From: Bacillota bacterium
GTDB lineage: Bacteria > Bacillota > Clostridia > Tissierellales > MES13
Reading direction: 5' to 3'
Assembly: GCA_009711765.1 (NCBI GenBank)
Contig: VEND01000129.1
Location: 1-44,205, forward strand
Length of the DNA: 44,205 nucleotides
The position numbers and the translations under genes are program-made. How positions within the stretch are numbered: the stretch's first letter is position 1; each line of letters begins with the position of its first letter. Shown here one piece after another: positions 126-44,139 of the stretch. Under the pieces are notes generated by a model that was not told where the DNA came from, made no database searches, and was given only the letters and a program-made list of their open reading frames with translations.

Positions 126-1548
126 TTGGAACATTGAAGACCCTTATCATTTTAATGAATTTATACCATTAGCAATATATTTTGATTATATTTTTACAAC
201 AGATTCAGCATCTATTAAAAAGTACAAAAAAATACTAAAACATAATCACATTTATACCTTACCTTTTGCTGCCCAGCCTAAGATTCATAATCCTATCAAT
301 AAAGGAGAAGAAAAAAAAGGAGATATAGCTTTTGCTGGTTCTTGGTATAGCAGTGGTCATGATGCACGAAAAAAAGATATGGAGAGAATATTAACTCCAG
401 CACTAGATTATGATTTAACTATCTATGATAGGATGTACAATGCTAAAAACAATAAATTTCATATATACCCTAAGAAGTACCAACCATATATAGTAGGAGG
501 TCTTGATTATCATGAAATGAATAAAGCTTATAAAAAATATAAAGTGTTTTTAAATGTTAATACGGTTCAAAAAAGTCCAACAATGTTTGCATGTAGAGTT
601 TTTGAACTTTTGGCAAGTGGTACAAATGTTGTAAGCGGATACGCTGTTGGAATTGAGAAGTTTTTTAAAAATATAGTTAAATTATCAAAGTCTAAAGAAG
701 AAACTAAAGAACATATTGATAAACTGTTAGTTAATGAAGAACTAAGAGATAGACTATCCTTACTTGGACAGAGAGAAGTTTTTTTAAAACACACTTACAA
801 GCAAAGATTAGAAACTATTTTAGATTCAATAGGGTATAAGTATTATAAAGAAAAGAAAAAAGGAGTATCAGTTATAAGTTGTACTAATAAAATAGATTCT
901 ATTAAAACCATATATAGTAATTTTAAGAGACAAAAATATAATAAAAAAGAACTTATTATTATAGCTAATAATAACAAAATTGATATTAAAGAATGGGAAA
1001 AGTTCACTGAATATGATGATTTTATTCACATTTATTCTATGGAGGAGAAGGCTACTTTAGGGGAGTGTCTTAATTTTGCTGTTAAAAAATCAAAATATGA
1101 AATTATATCAAAATTTGATGATGATGATTATTATGGAGAAAAGTATCTTACAGATTCGATAAATGCTTTTATATATACAGAGGCATCTATAGTAGGAAAA
1201 CGCTCTACTTATGTTTATTTTAAAGACAAAAGAATTTTAGCTATACGTGATGTTAGACGTGAAAATCAATATATAGACCTAGTTACAGGACCTACTTTAA
1301 CTTTTAAAAAAGAAATTTTTAAACATGTTAAGTTTTCAAAACTTAATATAGGAGAGGATACTAAATTTCAAAAAGATGCTAAAGCCTTAGGTTTTAAAAT
1401 TTATTCAATAGATAGATTCAATCATGTATATTTGAGAGAAAAAAATGGTAATAACCATACTTGGAAAGTGAAGGATGAAGATATATTAAAATATAGTGTA
1501 ATTGTTAATAAAAATATTGATGATTATAAAAGTATTGTATGCGTTTAG
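126..1548 (+). CDS. CgeB-like glycosyltransferase, 3' exon of an intron-interrupted gene (partial)
   Basis: The reading frame ending at 1548 is open back to the intron boundary. The first residues, WNIEDPYHF, followed by a TLPFAAQPK segment, are typical of the CgeB/DUF3880 glycosyltransferase family. An annotation starting at the ATG at 379 would lose about 84 residues. A glycosyl-transferase group 1-like domain (RVFELLASG motif) occupies the first half. The second half (from about 860) resembles a GT2-like domain with a DDDDYY acidic motif, the usual place of the metal/nucleotide-binding DxD. In Bacillus subtilis CgeB acts late in spore-coat maturation, so a spore-surface glycan role is plausible but inferred. 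The 5' exon is not in the window. The gene can give full-length protein only if the intron splices. The next gene starts 26 bases downstream. Confidence 0.8.
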
Positions 1549-1574
1549 AAATATTAAAAGAAAGAGTGATTTTT

Positions 1575-3425
1575 ATGAAAAAAGCTTTACTACGTTTAGA
1601 AGACGTTGGTCCTGGGGGATTATATAGTTCACTTGAAAATTTAGAAAAGCTAAAAATTATTGCTGATTATCTTCATTCAGAAAATATATATTTTCAAGCT
1701 TCAATAATACCTCGTTATATTGATTCTGAAATAGGCTATGATAAATCTATTGCTGATACAGACGATCCATATATTCAAGTGTTTAATGAAACAATAGAAT
1801 ATTTAAGTAATGTAAGTGGAGATTCATTAGGTATGCACGGATATACCCATCAATATTCTAGGTCAATAAGTGGTAATGGTTTTGAGTTTTCATATCCTAA
1901 TTGTATTGATAATTGTCCGCCTGATGATTCTAAAAAAGCTTGCGAAGATAGAAGTGCATTTTCTACTTCCTATGCTTCAAGTCGTATGAGACAGGGATAT
2001 GTATCATTTGATGAATCTGGTTTAAAGCTAGGTTGGGGATATTCCATTCCCCATTATATTATATCTGAAAATCAACAATGTATTTTAGAATCTTGGTCTG
2101 GCATTTTCTTTCAACCATATCCAGAAACCCCTTTTAAAAAAAATATGTCTATTCTTGATAAGGATAGTCCATTCTATAGAGGGGTTATATATGTACCCAC
2201 ACCATTAGGCTATGTGGAAGGAGGAAAAGAAGAAGAATCCGTTAATAGAATATGTAATGAAGTAAAAACTTATTCAGAAAATGATTTAGCCTCTTTTTTC
2301 TATCATCCTTATTTAGAGTTTCCCTTTATAGAAATAACAGAAGAAGGTGTTATATATGATGATAATTCTTATTTAAAACGTATTATCAGATGCATAAAAG
2401 AAGAGGGATTCACTTTTGTTCCACTAATAAGTTTAGTAAATTTTATCCCTTCTGTAAGAGCTACTAACCTTTTCGAAGGAGACTTATATAAATTCTATGT
2501 AGCTAAGTTAGATAATGTAGATGTTTTTTATGTATGGAATCCAAGTGTTGGATATTGGTATCGTATTAAGAGTGAAATTGATAAATTTCCTAGTAGACAA
2601 CCAGATGCTATACATTATCCTGTGCTTTTATTATCTGACTGGGCACAAGGAGATTATTGGACTCCACTAGTAGGAGATTTTAATGGTGATGGTGAGGATG
2701 ATGTAGCTGTATGGGATTCATATAATGGAGATTGGCAAGTTGCTATTCATAAAAGCTCATTATTAACACCTTCAATAGGAAGAGGGGATTATAGTTGGTT
2801 AAAGCCTTGGGCTGTTGGAGATTACTGGATTCCTTTGGTAGGAGATTTTAATGGTGATGGTAAAGATGATATTGTTGTATGGAATCCCTACTCAGGAGAC
2901 TGGCAAGTAGCACTAAGTGATGGTACAAAATTTATTCCTAGTCCTGGATTAGGTGATTATAACTGGTTGACATCCTGGGGAGAAGGAACTTATTGGACTC
3001 CATTAGTAGGAGATTTTAATGGTGATGGTAAAGATGATATTTTAATTTGGGATGCTTTAAGTGGTAATTGGAGAGTAGCTTTAAGTGATGGTACAAAGTT
3101 TGTTCCAGATCCAATAAATAATACTAATAGTTGGCTTAGACCTTGGGCAGTTGGAACTTATTGGACTCCACTAGTAGGAGACTTTAATGGTGATGGTAAG
3201 GATGATATTTTAGTTGTAATAAAAGATACTGGAGAATGGCAAATTGCTCTAAGTGATGGAGAAAAGTTTATACCAAATAGTAATATTTTCAAGCCTTGGG
3301 CAGCAGATTCAGATATGCAGCCATTTGTAGGAGATTTTGATGGAGATGGAAAAGCTGGTATTGTTGCAAGACATCCATTTTTAAGAAATGGAACTGTAGA
3401 TGGAGCTGCATCTGTTGTTAAATAA
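1575..3425 (+). CDS. DUF2334 polysaccharide deacetylase-like protein with C-terminal FG-GAP/VCBS repeats
   Basis: The protein is 616 residues. An ATG at 1575 is preferred to an in-frame codon at 1539 because 1539 overlaps the previous gene, while 1575 has a GAAAGAG-type ribosome site. The N-terminal ~290 residues resemble DUF2334/NodB-like carbohydrate esterases (LRLEDVGPGG near the start, LGMHGYTHQ as the likely metal/catalytic motif). The C-terminal part holds five repeats with VGDFNGDGKDD-type calcium-loop motifs. The first four are about 168 bases apart (near 2670, 2838, 3006 and 3174); the fifth is near 3330. This is the FG-GAP/VCBS pattern of a beta-propeller. No signal peptide is visible, so a mother-cell or non-classical location is possible. 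It probably trims or binds the polysaccharide made by the neighbouring genes; the substrate is unknown. Confidence 0.75.
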   Translation: MKKALLRLEDVGPGGLYSSLENLEKLKIIADYLHSENIYFQASIIPRYIDSEIGYDKSIADTDDPYIQVFNETIEYLSNVSGDSLGMHGYTHQYSRSISGNGFEFSYPNCIDNCPPDDSKKACEDRSAFSTSYASSRMRQGYVSFDESGLKLGWGYSIPHYIISENQQCILESWSGIFFQPYPETPFKKNMSILDKDSPFYRGVIYVPTPLGYVEGGKEEESVNRICNEVKTYSENDLASFFYHPYLEFPFIEITEEGVIYDDNSYLKRIIRCIKEEGFTFVPLISLVNFIPSVRATNLFEGDLYKFYVAKLDNVDVFYVWNPSVGYWYRIKSEIDKFPSRQPDAIHYPVLLLSDWAQGDYWTPLVGDFNGDGEDDVAVWDSYNGDWQVAIHKSSLLTPSIGRGDYSWLKPWAVGDYWIPLVGDFNGDGKDDIVVWNPYSGDWQVALSDGTKFIPSPGLGDYNWLTSWGEGTYWTPLVGDFNGDGKDDILIWDALSGNWRVALSDGTKFVPDPINNTNSWLRPWAVGTYWTPLVGDFNGDGKDDILVVIKDTGEWQIALSDGEKFIPNSNIFKPWAADSDMQPFVGDFDGDGKAGIVARHPFLRNGTVDGAASVVK

Positions 3426-15292: not shown

Positions 15293-15330
15293 TATATAGA
15301 AAAATAAAAGTGGAAATAATTATAATAAAC

Positions 15331-15360
15331 TAAAGCCATCGACTCATGTCGATGGCTTTA
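15331..15360 (+). terminator. Stem-loop between recD2 and comF
   Basis: A 13-bp perfect stem (15331-15343 with 15348-15360) with a TCAT loop is followed by a weak T-rich stretch. It lies directly before the comF ribosome site, so it may attenuate rather than fully stop transcription. Confidence 0.6.
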
Positions 15361-15377
15361 TATCTAGTGGAGGATAA

Positions 15378-16094
15378 ATGGGTTTAATAAAATATTTAAA
15401 AAGTTTTTTAGATTTAATTTTTCCTGAGAAATATATCTGTTTTATATGTGATAAATATGATGAGTCTATAAGTATGCATATATGTGATGATTGTCTAGAA
15501 AGCTTTGAGTATGTAATAGATGGGTGTAAAATCTGTGGGAAACCTTTTTATGAGCTTTCTGAAATATGTGATGGATGTAAAGAAAGTAATCGTTATTTTT
15601 ATAAAGCGACAGCTGTTTTTGAGTATAATAACTCTATTAAAAAAGCTATATATAAATATAAGTATTATAAAAGATCATATATGTATAAAGCATTTGGAGA
15701 ATTAATGCTTAATTTATTAAAGGCAAATCATCTAGAGGATATAGATTATATTGTAGCTGTACCTTTACATAAAACAAAAGAATTAAAAAGAGGATTTAAT
15801 CAAGCATATTTACTGGCTAAATATATTTCAGAAAAGACATTTATACCCTTAGATAAAAGTCTTTTAAGAATTAAAAAAACAGTTGTACAAAATAATTTAA
15901 AAAGTATACAAAGACATAATAATATTAAGGGAGCATTTAGCTTAAAGAAGAATAATTTAAAGGATAAAAATATATTGTTAATAGATGATATTTTAACTAC
16001 TGGTGCTACTGCAGATGAATGTTCAAAGACCCTTTTAAATGGAGGTGTAAAAAGAGTATATGTTCTCACTTTAGCTACGACAAGGTATAATTAA
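15378..16094 (+). CDS. comF: ComF-family phosphoribosyltransferase-like protein
   Basis: The protein is 238 residues, starting at an ATG after TGGAGGA. The N-terminal ~65 residues carry four CxxC-type pairs (CFIC, CDDC, CKIC, CDGC) that should bind zinc. The C-terminal domain is a type I phosphoribosyltransferase fold with the PRPP loop ILLIDDILTTGATADEC. ComF proteins help move single-stranded DNA inward during competence and are also linked to recombination, which fits a place next to recD2. Whether this organism is competent cannot be seen here. Confidence 0.9.
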   Translation: MGLIKYLKSFLDLIFPEKYICFICDKYDESISMHICDDCLESFEYVIDGCKICGKPFYELSEICDGCKESNRYFYKATAVFEYNNSIKKAIYKYKYYKRSYMYKAFGELMLNLLKANHLEDIDYIVAVPLHKTKELKRGFNQAYLLAKYISEKTFIPLDKSLLRIKKTVVQNNLKSIQRHNNIKGAFSLKKNNLKDKNILLIDDILTTGATADECSKTLLNGGVKRVYVLTLATTRYN

Positions 16095-16098
16095 CTGT

Positions 16099-16357
16099 TT
16101 ATTAACATATTTATCAACATATTGTGGGTTACTTTCTTAATATACACAATGAAAATTATAAATATAATTGTATTAATATTCAATAAATTGTCGATATTAA
16201 TAAAAAAAATTAAAATTAACATCAAATAACAGGATATTCACATGACTTTCCACAGTCAAATGTGTATCAAACAACAGTTTTCCACAGAGTTATTCACATT
16301 ATCCACATATTTGACTTGTGTTTATCCACAAAAACATCAAAGGGAGCCTGTGGATAT
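16099..16357. other. DnaA-box cluster in the comF-hpf gap
   Basis: Three perfect TTATNCACA boxes lie at 16290-16298, 16299-16307 (directly abutting) and 16322-16330. One-mismatch boxes lie at 16099-16107, 16111-16119, 16234-16242, 16278-16286, 16261-16269 (minus) and 16349-16357 (minus). A weaker one is at 16246-16254. This is the density of a replication origin or a DnaA-titration locus, yet no dnaA or dnaN is in the window. The DNA on both sides is very AT-rich. The rest of the gap, to about 16690, shows no gene. Confidence 0.75.
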
Positions 16358-16371
16358 ATTTATACATTGAT

Positions 16372-16401
16372 TTGTATAATGATTTGAAAAATATGTATTA
16401 T
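16372..16401 (+). promoter_or_regulatory. Possible promoter for the hpf leader
   Basis: TTGTAT (16372-16377) and TATTAT (16396-16401) are separated by 18 bases, just downstream of the DnaA boxes. If used, the hpf mRNA would carry a leader of about 345 bases. Confidence 0.3.
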
Positions 16402-16694
16402 ATTAAGAGAAAATATCATAAGAGGTTACGTTAAAGTAAATACCTTAAGAACTAAGGGTTTAATAAAAGTGTAAGTTTTAATAATTTCAAATTCAATTAT
16501 ATAAAAAAGGTAATGTAGAAATATGACTTTTAAATTAGATGTTTTTTTTATTTTACTATGGGTATCATATATTATATAGATATTAAGAAATTAACTTATA
16601 GTTAAAATTACTAAATGTTTTGAAAATTTAAAGGATAAAAGTAACTTTTGTAGAATATTTATATATAGGAAGATATTTTACTTATGATTAAAAT

Positions 16695-16724
16695 TTTAAT
16701 TGATAAATCAATTTATCAATTAAA
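16695..16724 (+). promoter_or_regulatory. Hairpin in the hpf leader
   Basis: A 13-bp perfect stem (16695-16707 with 16712-16724), extendable by three pairs past a one-base bulge, encloses a TCAA loop. It ends 12 bases before the hpf ribosome site. No long T-run follows, so a role in translation or mRNA stability is more likely than termination. Confidence 0.45.
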
Positions 16725-16752
16725 TTTCATAGATTGAAGGGAGTTGTTGTTT

Positions 16753-17286
16753 ATGAAAATTATAGTAAGTGGTAAGAACATGCAAGTTACAAATGCACTA
16801 AAAGATACTGCAATTAAAAAGTTAGGAAAGTTAGATAAGTATTTTCACAAAGATGTAGAAGCAGAAGTAACAATGAGTGTTGAAAAGGATAGACAGATTT
16901 TAGAGGTAACTATTCCCTTTGCAGGAACAATTTTAAGAGCTGAAGAAGCTACATCTGATATGTATGCTTCAATTGACAAAGCAGTTGATATATTAGAAAG
17001 ACAAGTTAAAAAGCATAAAACAAAGTTAGAAAAAAGACATCGCGGTTCTGAAACTATTAGATTTGAAAATATTCCTTCTATGAGGGAAGAAAAAGAGGAT
17101 GATGAACCCAAAATAGTTAAAACTAAGAAATTTGCAATGAAGCCAATGGACGAAGAAGAAGCTGTTTTACAAATGGAGCTTTTAGGACATAATTTCTTTG
17201 TATTTACCAATGGAGAAACAGAAGAGGTAAATGTTGTTTATAAAAGAAAAGATGGAGATTATGGTTTAATAGAACCAGAGATATAA
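16753..17286 (+). CDS. hpf: Ribosome hibernation promoting factor, long form
   Basis: The protein is 177 residues. The ATG at 16753 has AAGGGAG 9 bases upstream; the TTG codons before it are not needed. The N-terminal ~100 residues are the S30AE/YfiA domain (MKIIVSGKNMQVTNALKD start, basic RQVKKHKTKLEKRH helix). An acidic linker follows, and then the ~55-residue C-terminal dimerisation domain (KKFAMKPMDEEEAVLQMEL, HNFFVF, YKRKDGDYGLIEP). The long form alone makes 100S ribosome dimers in Gram-positive bacteria during slow growth. Confidence 0.95.
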   Translation: MKIIVSGKNMQVTNALKDTAIKKLGKLDKYFHKDVEAEVTMSVEKDRQILEVTIPFAGTILRAEEATSDMYASIDKAVDILERQVKKHKTKLEKRHRGSETIRFENIPSMREEKEDDEPKIVKTKKFAMKPMDEEEAVLQMELLGHNFFVFTNGETEEVNVVYKRKDGDYGLIEPEI

Positions 17287-17300
17287 AATAGACTTTTAAG

Positions 17301-17326
17301 CCCACGATATTAATCGTGGGTTTTTT
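17301..17326 (+). terminator. Intrinsic terminator of hpf
   Basis: An 8-bp GC-rich stem (17301-17308 with 17313-17320) is followed by six T. Confidence 0.9.
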
Positions 17327-17406
17327 ATGTCTAAATTGAAGGAATTTTCAAAAATTTATAGAAATATTACAAATGAATGCTTATACTTATGAAGGGAGAT
17401 GGTTTT

Positions 17407-18000
17407 ATGATATGGACCTTTTTAGTTTTATCAGTTGTAGTAGGACTTATTAGAGGTGGAAAAATATCAAGACTTAGTGGATTAAAGTTTCAAAGTTTAT
17501 GGTTATTTATTTTAGCCTTAGCTATACAAGCTGTAATTATATTATTTGGTGTTAATACTGATTCTATTGTTTTAGAATATATTAAGGAATTATATGTCGC
17601 TTCATATGCACTTTTATTTATTGGTATAATATTAAACATAAAAATAAGGTCTTTAATAGTAATAGCTTTAGGGGCTATATCTAATATATTAGTTTTTGCA
17701 GTAAATAAAGGTAAAATACCTATATCTATGGAAGGATTAAAATTAGCTGGATATAATGATTTAATTGAACTATTAAAAAATGGTGAAATTGCTTTATATA
17801 CCCCTTTGACAAGTGATACTAAATATGCTTATTTATCTAAACTTATTACGATACAAAAGCCATATCCCTTTCCGCAAGTATTAAGTATAGGCGATGTAAT
17901 AATAGCTTTAGGACTTTTTATATTTATACAAAGTGTTATGCTTAATCCAAATTTAACTAAGAGTAATATGCTGAAATTTGGTTATAAAAATAAATTTTAG
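17407..18000 (+). CDS. DUF5317 family membrane protein
   Basis: The protein is 197 residues. The ATG at 17407 follows GAAGGGAG; an in-frame ATG at 17377 lacks a site. It is very hydrophobic, with about five membrane segments (near residues 1-15, 25-45, 58-75, 80-100 and 160-180). It starts MIWTFLVLSVVVGLIRGGK and has a GGKISRLSGLKFQ loop, which fits the DUF5317 family of Clostridia. No enzyme motif is visible and the function is unknown. It stands alone between two terminators. Confidence 0.65.
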   Translation: MIWTFLVLSVVVGLIRGGKISRLSGLKFQSLWLFILALAIQAVIILFGVNTDSIVLEYIKELYVASYALLFIGIILNIKIRSLIVIALGAISNILVFAVNKGKIPISMEGLKLAGYNDLIELLKNGEIALYTPLTSDTKYAYLSKLITIQKPYPFPQVLSIGDVIIALGLFIFIQSVMLNPNLTKSNMLKFGYKNKF

Positions 18001-43499: not shown

Positions 43500-43770
43500 G
43501 AAATAAACTGCCGTATAACACTGTTTATCTGTGGGACGGTATTAAGATGGCACGAGCATATATTAGGCACCTGTATGAAACATGGGAACCTGTGGTGTGA
43601 TGGTAATCAAAAATGTTCAAGTCACAGAAAGACAAGACAGAAAGTAGAAATGCACATTATAGGGACGGAGACATCCGTAGTAGTGATGAAGCTTCTGTAA
43701 TGGCAGTGGAACAAAGGGATGTCGTCATTCTGCTTAAATCAGATAACAACTACAAGAGTAGGAGGATTTG
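43500..43770 (+). mobile_element. Internal part of a second group II intron (domains I-III) before its ORF
   Basis: The segment TAAGATGGCACGAGCATA, then AGGCACCTGTATGAAACATG and GGAACCTGTGGTG, is the end of domain I of a class B-like intron. GAAGCTTCTGTAATGGCAGT, followed by GGAACAAAGGGATGTCGTC, fits domain III. The 5' end of this intron is not found; it joins the first intron fragment near 43459-43500. Confidence 0.65.
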
Positions 43771-44139
43771 ATGAGGAAAAGCAAATCATATGAAATACCT
43801 AAGAGAGTAGTGTTTGAAGCCTACAAGAAAGTTAAGAAAAACAAAGGAAGTGCTGGTATAGATGAAATTACCTTTGAAGATTTTGAAAGAGATTTAGGAG
43901 GAAATTTATATAAAATATGGAATCGAATGAGTTCAGGAAGTTACTTTCCCTCACCAGTACTAGCAGTAGAAATACCAAAGAAGAATGGTGGAACAAGAAG
44001 ACTTGGAATTCCAACCATAGCAGATAGAATTGCACAGATGGTTGCAAGAATGTATGTAGAATATAAAGTTGAACCAATTGTATATAGTAAACTAAAAGTA
44101 CCCACTATTATAATTGAAAACTCCCCAGTAAAAATATAA
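43771..44139 (+). pseudogene. Truncated group II intron reverse transcriptase
   Basis: The ATG at 43771 follows GGAGG. The frame begins MRKSKSYEIPKRVVFEAYKK and VKKNKGSAGIDEITFEDFE, then VLAVEIPKKNGGTRRLGIP and IADRIAQMVARMYVE, the RT-0/RT-1 region of group II intron proteins. The family pattern is lost at about 44085, where EPIFHEDSYGYRP would be expected. The frame stops at 44139. RT domains 3-7 (including the catalytic YADD), the maturase domain and any endonuclease are missing, so it is inactive. Confidence 0.8.

Follow-up and report, generated by a model that had tools for sequence, protein, structure and literature searches.

The gap between comF and hpf in the DNA studied here (44,205 nucleotides from a Bacillota bacterium, hereafter the window) holds a genuine cluster of DnaA boxes, one that greatly exceeds chance expectation and whose conservation is deep. 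DnaA is the protein that starts chromosome copying. The cluster is an organised element of about 150 bp, and its presence at the same spot in many distantly related Clostridia points, as far as sequence can tell, to a conserved site controlling replication timing. It is best read as a syntenically fixed addition to the DnaA-box clusters (DBCs) outside oriC of the type known in B. subtilis, distinguished by a fixed geometry that was not expected and by two constant locations.

The comF-hpf gap spans 658 bp (16095-16752) and has a GC content of 20.8%, as against 28.4% in the window, in agreement with the AT-rich flanks of the original prediction. That prediction had also described three perfect boxes, two of them abutting, and about six near-matches in some 260 bases. 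The three perfect copies of TTATNCACA were recovered (16290 and 16299 abut; the third is at 16322), and the near-matches number seven, each with one mismatch (Table 1); a further one-mismatch box at 16371, on the minus strand, falls outside the 16099-16357 stretch. At the array there are 10 boxes with at most one mismatch per 260 bp, while the rest of the window reaches a maximum of 3, 60 order-2 Markov windows a maximum of 5, and none of 2000 order-1 simulations of the gap as many as 9. In the whole genome (3.83 Mb), TTATNCACA and its reversed control are about equally frequent (207 and 204 copies). Same-strand perfect pairs within 30 bp, by comparison, give five matches at only four places, with none for the reversed-pattern control, and two of the five are the window array; the prediction had asked whether AT-rich sites elsewhere are as dense. 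Chance or AT-richness as the cause of the cluster is ruled out by the genome-wide pair scan together with the Markov and gap simulations. The DnaA of the same genome contains the helix-turn-helix domain PF08299 (E=2.6e-31) and likewise the AAA+ domain.

Table 1. Features in and around the comF-hpf gap, in window coordinates.
Feature	Position	Strand	Basis or remark
comF (ComF-family phosphoribosyltransferase)	15378..16094	+	NCBIfam TIGR00201; array starts directly 3'
Outer weak boxes, one mismatch each: TTATTAACA 16099, TTATCAACA 16111, ATATACACA 16140	16099..16148	+	
Weak boxes, one mismatch each: ATATTCACA 16234 (+), TGATACACA 16261 (-)	16234..16269	both strands	
Core triad: TTTTCCACA 16278 (one mismatch), TTATTCACA 16290, TTATCCACA 16299	16277..16307	+	37-locus alignment, profile R1
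Perfect box TTATCCACA, 3' of triad	16322..16330	+	
Inverted box ATATCCACA (one mismatch)	16349..16357	-	
Putative SigH-type hpf promoter AAAGGATAAAAGTAACTTTTGTAGAAT	16630..16656	+	motif pattern across hpf loci
hpf (long-form ribosome hibernation-promoting factor)	16753..17286	+	TIGR00741, PF16321

Elsewhere in the window, an ORF at 1539-3425 joins a DUF2334 domain to FG-GAP repeats and lies beside glycosyltransferase-like and sugar-nucleotide genes.

The core of the array is a tandem triad, GTTWTCMACAGA-TTATNCACA-TTATCCACAG, arranged as box, 3 bp, box, box, with spacings of 12 and 9 bp and all three boxes on one strand. Eighty hpf loci were fetched, of which 75 had enough upstream sequence to examine, and a common element was present 90-720 bp 5' of hpf in more than 50 of the 75, always on the hpf strand. 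An alignment of 37 loci yielded the consensus GTTATCCACAGAnTTATCCACATTATCCACAG, again three same-strand boxes at 12 and 9 bp, and each of its nine invariant columns is a box position. In the 30 best order-level loci the surroundings of the triad are also maintained: forward boxes are frequent 20-60 bp 5' of it, a forward box is kept about 40-50 bp from its start, and an inverted box is kept 60-80 bp from its start in 23 of the 30. The window copy follows the same plan.

A sequence-only profile of the triad, R1, was run over whole genomes without any constraint on position. In the source genome R1 ranked the window site first (E=1.5e-11). The next best were a site on contig C12 close to an amidase gene (E=0.003) and oriC (E=0.004), the latter with an E-value about 10^8 worse. 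In the order (60 genomes), all but one of the 36 matches with E<1e-8 lie upstream of hpf, a share that is partly by construction because hpf loci served as training data for R1 and several of the genomes used for training are also among the 60; the results for tsaD and for the phylum described below are not subject to this. These 35 sit about 1 kb or less upstream of the match to the hpf C-terminal domain (one at 1.5 kb), and the sole exception (G021) adjoins flgN near a contig end. Overall, 42 of the 60 genomes have a match upstream of hpf, all but one on the hpf strand, so that the conservation in relatives on which the original prediction depended is strong; within the order, the hpf array is missing from most genomes of three families, f3, f4 and f19. 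Only 24 R1 matches were found near dnaA in this search.

The C12 site of the source genome (C12:51035-51210; L129:2035-2210) adds a third DnaA-box group of lesser strength, next to an Amidase_3 (CwlD-like) gene. In a second genome (L138) a DnaA-box group again adjoins Amidase_3.

Additionally, we identified a second array 3' of tsaD (gcp) in 31 of the 60 order genomes. It lies 70-390 bp past the 3' end of the tsaD match (706 bp in one case) and on the strand opposite to tsaD in 34 of 35 matches. Nearly all order genomes with hpf and tsaD on a single contig have the two genes in the same orientation, at a distance of 10-48 kb. The source genome carries its own second array at C75:1224-1350 (L084), between bioY and tsaD at the 3' end of each gene, and its core is made of three similar boxes, TTATTCACA, TTTTCCACA and TTATCCACA. 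In the source genome, the order and the phylum alike, this position matches the gcp/ydiF DnaA region of B. subtilis.

A truncated ORF resembling a reverse transcriptase lies at 43768-44139, at the contig end of the window; by eye it is like the group II intron protein LtrA, and it gave no Pfam match. The assembly break before tsaD is likely due to this ORF.

At the level of the phylum, 122 of 299 genomes gave a match at E<1e-7, and flanks were read for 110 of the best matches. Among these 110, 45 lie just 3' of tsaD, every one on the opposite strand, and 25 lie upstream of hpf, every one on the hpf strand. A further 9 are just 3' of comF and 12 just 3' of a gene for a zf_Tbcl zinc ribbon, a gene that at one locus (L274) is next to comF; neighbours of the remaining 19 include flgN and amino-acid-ABC genes. 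In two other clostridial families the array adjoins sigH. Given these varied neighbours, the array follows the comF-hpf locus and the 3' end of tsaD, and not strictly the hpf promoter. That arrays occupy the same two gene ends throughout the phylum, with the tsaD one corresponding to a site proven in B. subtilis, suggests an ancient, selected control of the chromosome and not incidental binding.

At three loci from other clostridial families (L141, L158 and L165), this DnaA triad was seen just 3' of sigH or of the zf_Tbcl zinc-ribbon gene.

The position upstream of hpf raises a further reading, also put forward in the original prediction, in which the array serves to regulate hpf under the control of DnaA. 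Upstream DnaA would modulate a SigH-type promoter and tie ribosome hibernation to the state of replication, as for sda, the DnaA-activated sporulation checkpoint gene of B. subtilis. The SigH-type motif AAAGGATAAAAGTAACTTTTGTAGAAT occurs between array and gene in 34 of the 80 hpf loci, with none on the reverse strand and 2.3 expected from Markov controls, and in the window it starts about 270 bp 3' of the box at 16349-16357; a scan for sigma-70 promoters gave no more matches than shuffled sequence. This motif, and the upstream placement on the hpf strand in the order (one exception) and in all 25 phylum matches at hpf, are consistent with such a role. However, the distance from array to hpf ATG varies from 71 to about 700 bp, and in about 21 phylum loci the array is kept 3' of comF or the zinc-ribbon gene when the retrieved flank, of up to 2.5 kb, contains no hpf match. 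Furthermore, an ABC-transporter solute-binding gene separates array and hpf in Caldicoprobacter, and the sister array at tsaD sits at 3' gene ends. The array resembles the sda promoter in that DnaA boxes precede a gene belonging to the starvation/sporulation transition. Boxes fixed relative to the regulated promoter, the mark of an sda-type arrangement, are not what we found: hundreds of bp, a variable distance, separate the array boxes from the hpf promoter, and the boxes are kept when hpf is not adjacent. Retention of the array next to comF in the absence of hpf speaks against a role at the hpf promoter as the conserved function, and we consider hpf control a rather unlikely explanation of the array. 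A local, secondary effect on hpf transcription in the source lineage is possible, and to this extent the proposal stands.

Two other features near hpf were observed. A GGGTAT-centred AT-rich motif at 16558-16580, 5' of hpf, recurs by eye in several relatives and is possibly a second promoter type. Between hpf and secA, a gene for a DUF5317 membrane protein (17377-18000) has the same place in a same-genus genome and adjoins hpf in G016.

Many boxes and an AT-rich flank might also mark a second or cryptic chromosomal origin, an option the original prediction had raised along with the absence of dnaA and dnaN. That absence is true of the window, but the genome has both genes on contig C103, with many boxes 5' of dnaA and more between dnaA and dnaN, a normal box-rich oriC. 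GC skew is positive throughout the array site with no switch, and comF, hpf, secA and prfB all run in the same direction. The distance between hpf and dnaA amounts to 5-25% of the genome in relatives whose genomes are complete or nearly so. No DnaA-trio was seen by eye in the sequence, whose flank is AT-rich. An origin is rejected on the basis of skew, gene strand and the separate dnaA-dnaN oriC, and we regard its probability as negligible.

It is also conceivable that the conserved bases belong to an RNA element, for example a relative of raiA RNA, or to the site of another protein. In many species the raiA RNA follows comFC and precedes raiA, and these two genes are its commonest neighbours (PMC11706538); it is found upstream of hpf in several relatives. 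In related Clostridia the raiA (ModT) RNA is found in the same intergenic slot as the array, comF-raiA(hpf), but it is a structured RNA, and the two co-exist as separate elements: in Geosporobacter, Marinisporobacter and Tepidibacter the order is raiA RNA, DnaA array, hpf, with the triad between the RNA and the gene. The gap has no Rfam match, and the raiA covariance model (RF03072) found nothing in window 15300-17400 while detecting its positive controls in L008, L018 and L072; a raiA search of 60 relatives gave no matches, but its controls were equally silent. The triad alignment has no consensus RNA fold, and its conserved bases spell the DnaA consensus three times. A structured RNA is rejected for want of an Rfam match and a consensus fold, and the reading as a whole, other proteins included, is very improbable.

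In Geosporobacter ferrireducens (L008:4159-4661), a raiA RNA, a c-di-GMP-I riboswitch and the DnaA array were seen in a row 5' of hpf.

Based on our results here, the B. subtilis-type DnaA-box cluster is the best supported of the options in the original prediction, given the conservation at a fixed locus, the tsaD(gcp) 3' partner at a proven site and the separate oriC. By analogy, the comF-hpf array is probably an extra-oriC DnaA-binding array fixed in this neighbourhood of Clostridia, which would sequester DnaA and restrain initiation. The gcp 3' region (gcp/ydiF) is a proven DnaA-binding site in B. subtilis that prefers ATP-DnaA 16-fold (PMC4447404), and deletion of six extra-oriC clusters in that organism leads to early initiation (PMC5295017, PMC13220808). 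Sequestration by both clostridial arrays is proposed by analogy, because the tsaD array is at the gcp-equivalent place and the hpf array shares its triad. DnaA would bind the same-strand triad (box, 3 bp, box, box) cooperatively and spread from there to the flanking boxes. Once the origin-side region had been copied, the array would hold DnaA back, less DnaA would be free, and re-initiation at oriC would be restrained; the tsaD partner array would act likewise. Given the distance of hpf from dnaA, the hpf array would duplicate early in the cycle, as sequestration needs, a placement that may instead be explained by the position of hpf itself. Occupancy by DnaA in vivo, cooperativity and an effect of the array on initiation timing are thus what we infer from the B. 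subtilis clusters. The constant strand orientation is needless for simple titration and might reflect an orientation-dependent role.

A further reading is a dedicated nucleotide switch, functionally analogous to E. coli datA/DARS, in which triad-bound DnaA hydrolyses ATP or releases ADP. Box number, order, spacing and orientation are fixed over the whole phylum, suggesting a precise nucleoprotein shape, and the 16-fold preference for ATP-DnaA at gcp/ydiF (PMC4447404) fits this view. However, B. subtilis is without IHF and Hda (PMC13220808, a 2026 review), and its regulation targets DnaA cooperativity and not nucleotide state (PMC5295017), which makes a nucleotide switch decidedly unlikely. A broader possibility, slightly less doubtful and still unlikely, is that the comF-hpf and tsaD arrays form a phylum-wide paired DnaA control module, the Clostridia counterpart of datA/DARS. 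Its triads, of the same geometry and in opposite directions, would together time initiation through a DnaA assembly of defined form, either a bridged loop or a switch of nucleotide state.

No prior report of DnaA boxes linked to hpf, raiA or comFC was found in the literature searched, which was largely limited to papers available outside subscription. To our knowledge, little is known of DnaA limitation in Gram-positive anaerobes, and the arrays offer exact deletion targets with a clear prediction.

The E. coli datA/DARS loci depend on IHF/Fis and change the nucleotide state of DnaA. Like the array, datA, DARS1 and DARS2 are non-coding DnaA-box loci outside oriC at conserved chromosomal places. 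Similarly, the B. subtilis DBCs (gcp/ydiF, sda/yqeG, ywlC, ywcI, yydA and trmE) are, like the clostridial arrays, clusters of TTATNCACA outside oriC. The gcp/ydiF region occupies the equivalent gene end to the clostridial tsaD(gcp) 3' array, and the hpf/comF place is absent among the eight strong B. subtilis DnaA regions (PMC4447404). In contrast to the B. subtilis DBCs, the clostridial arrays have a strict common triad geometry and orientation.
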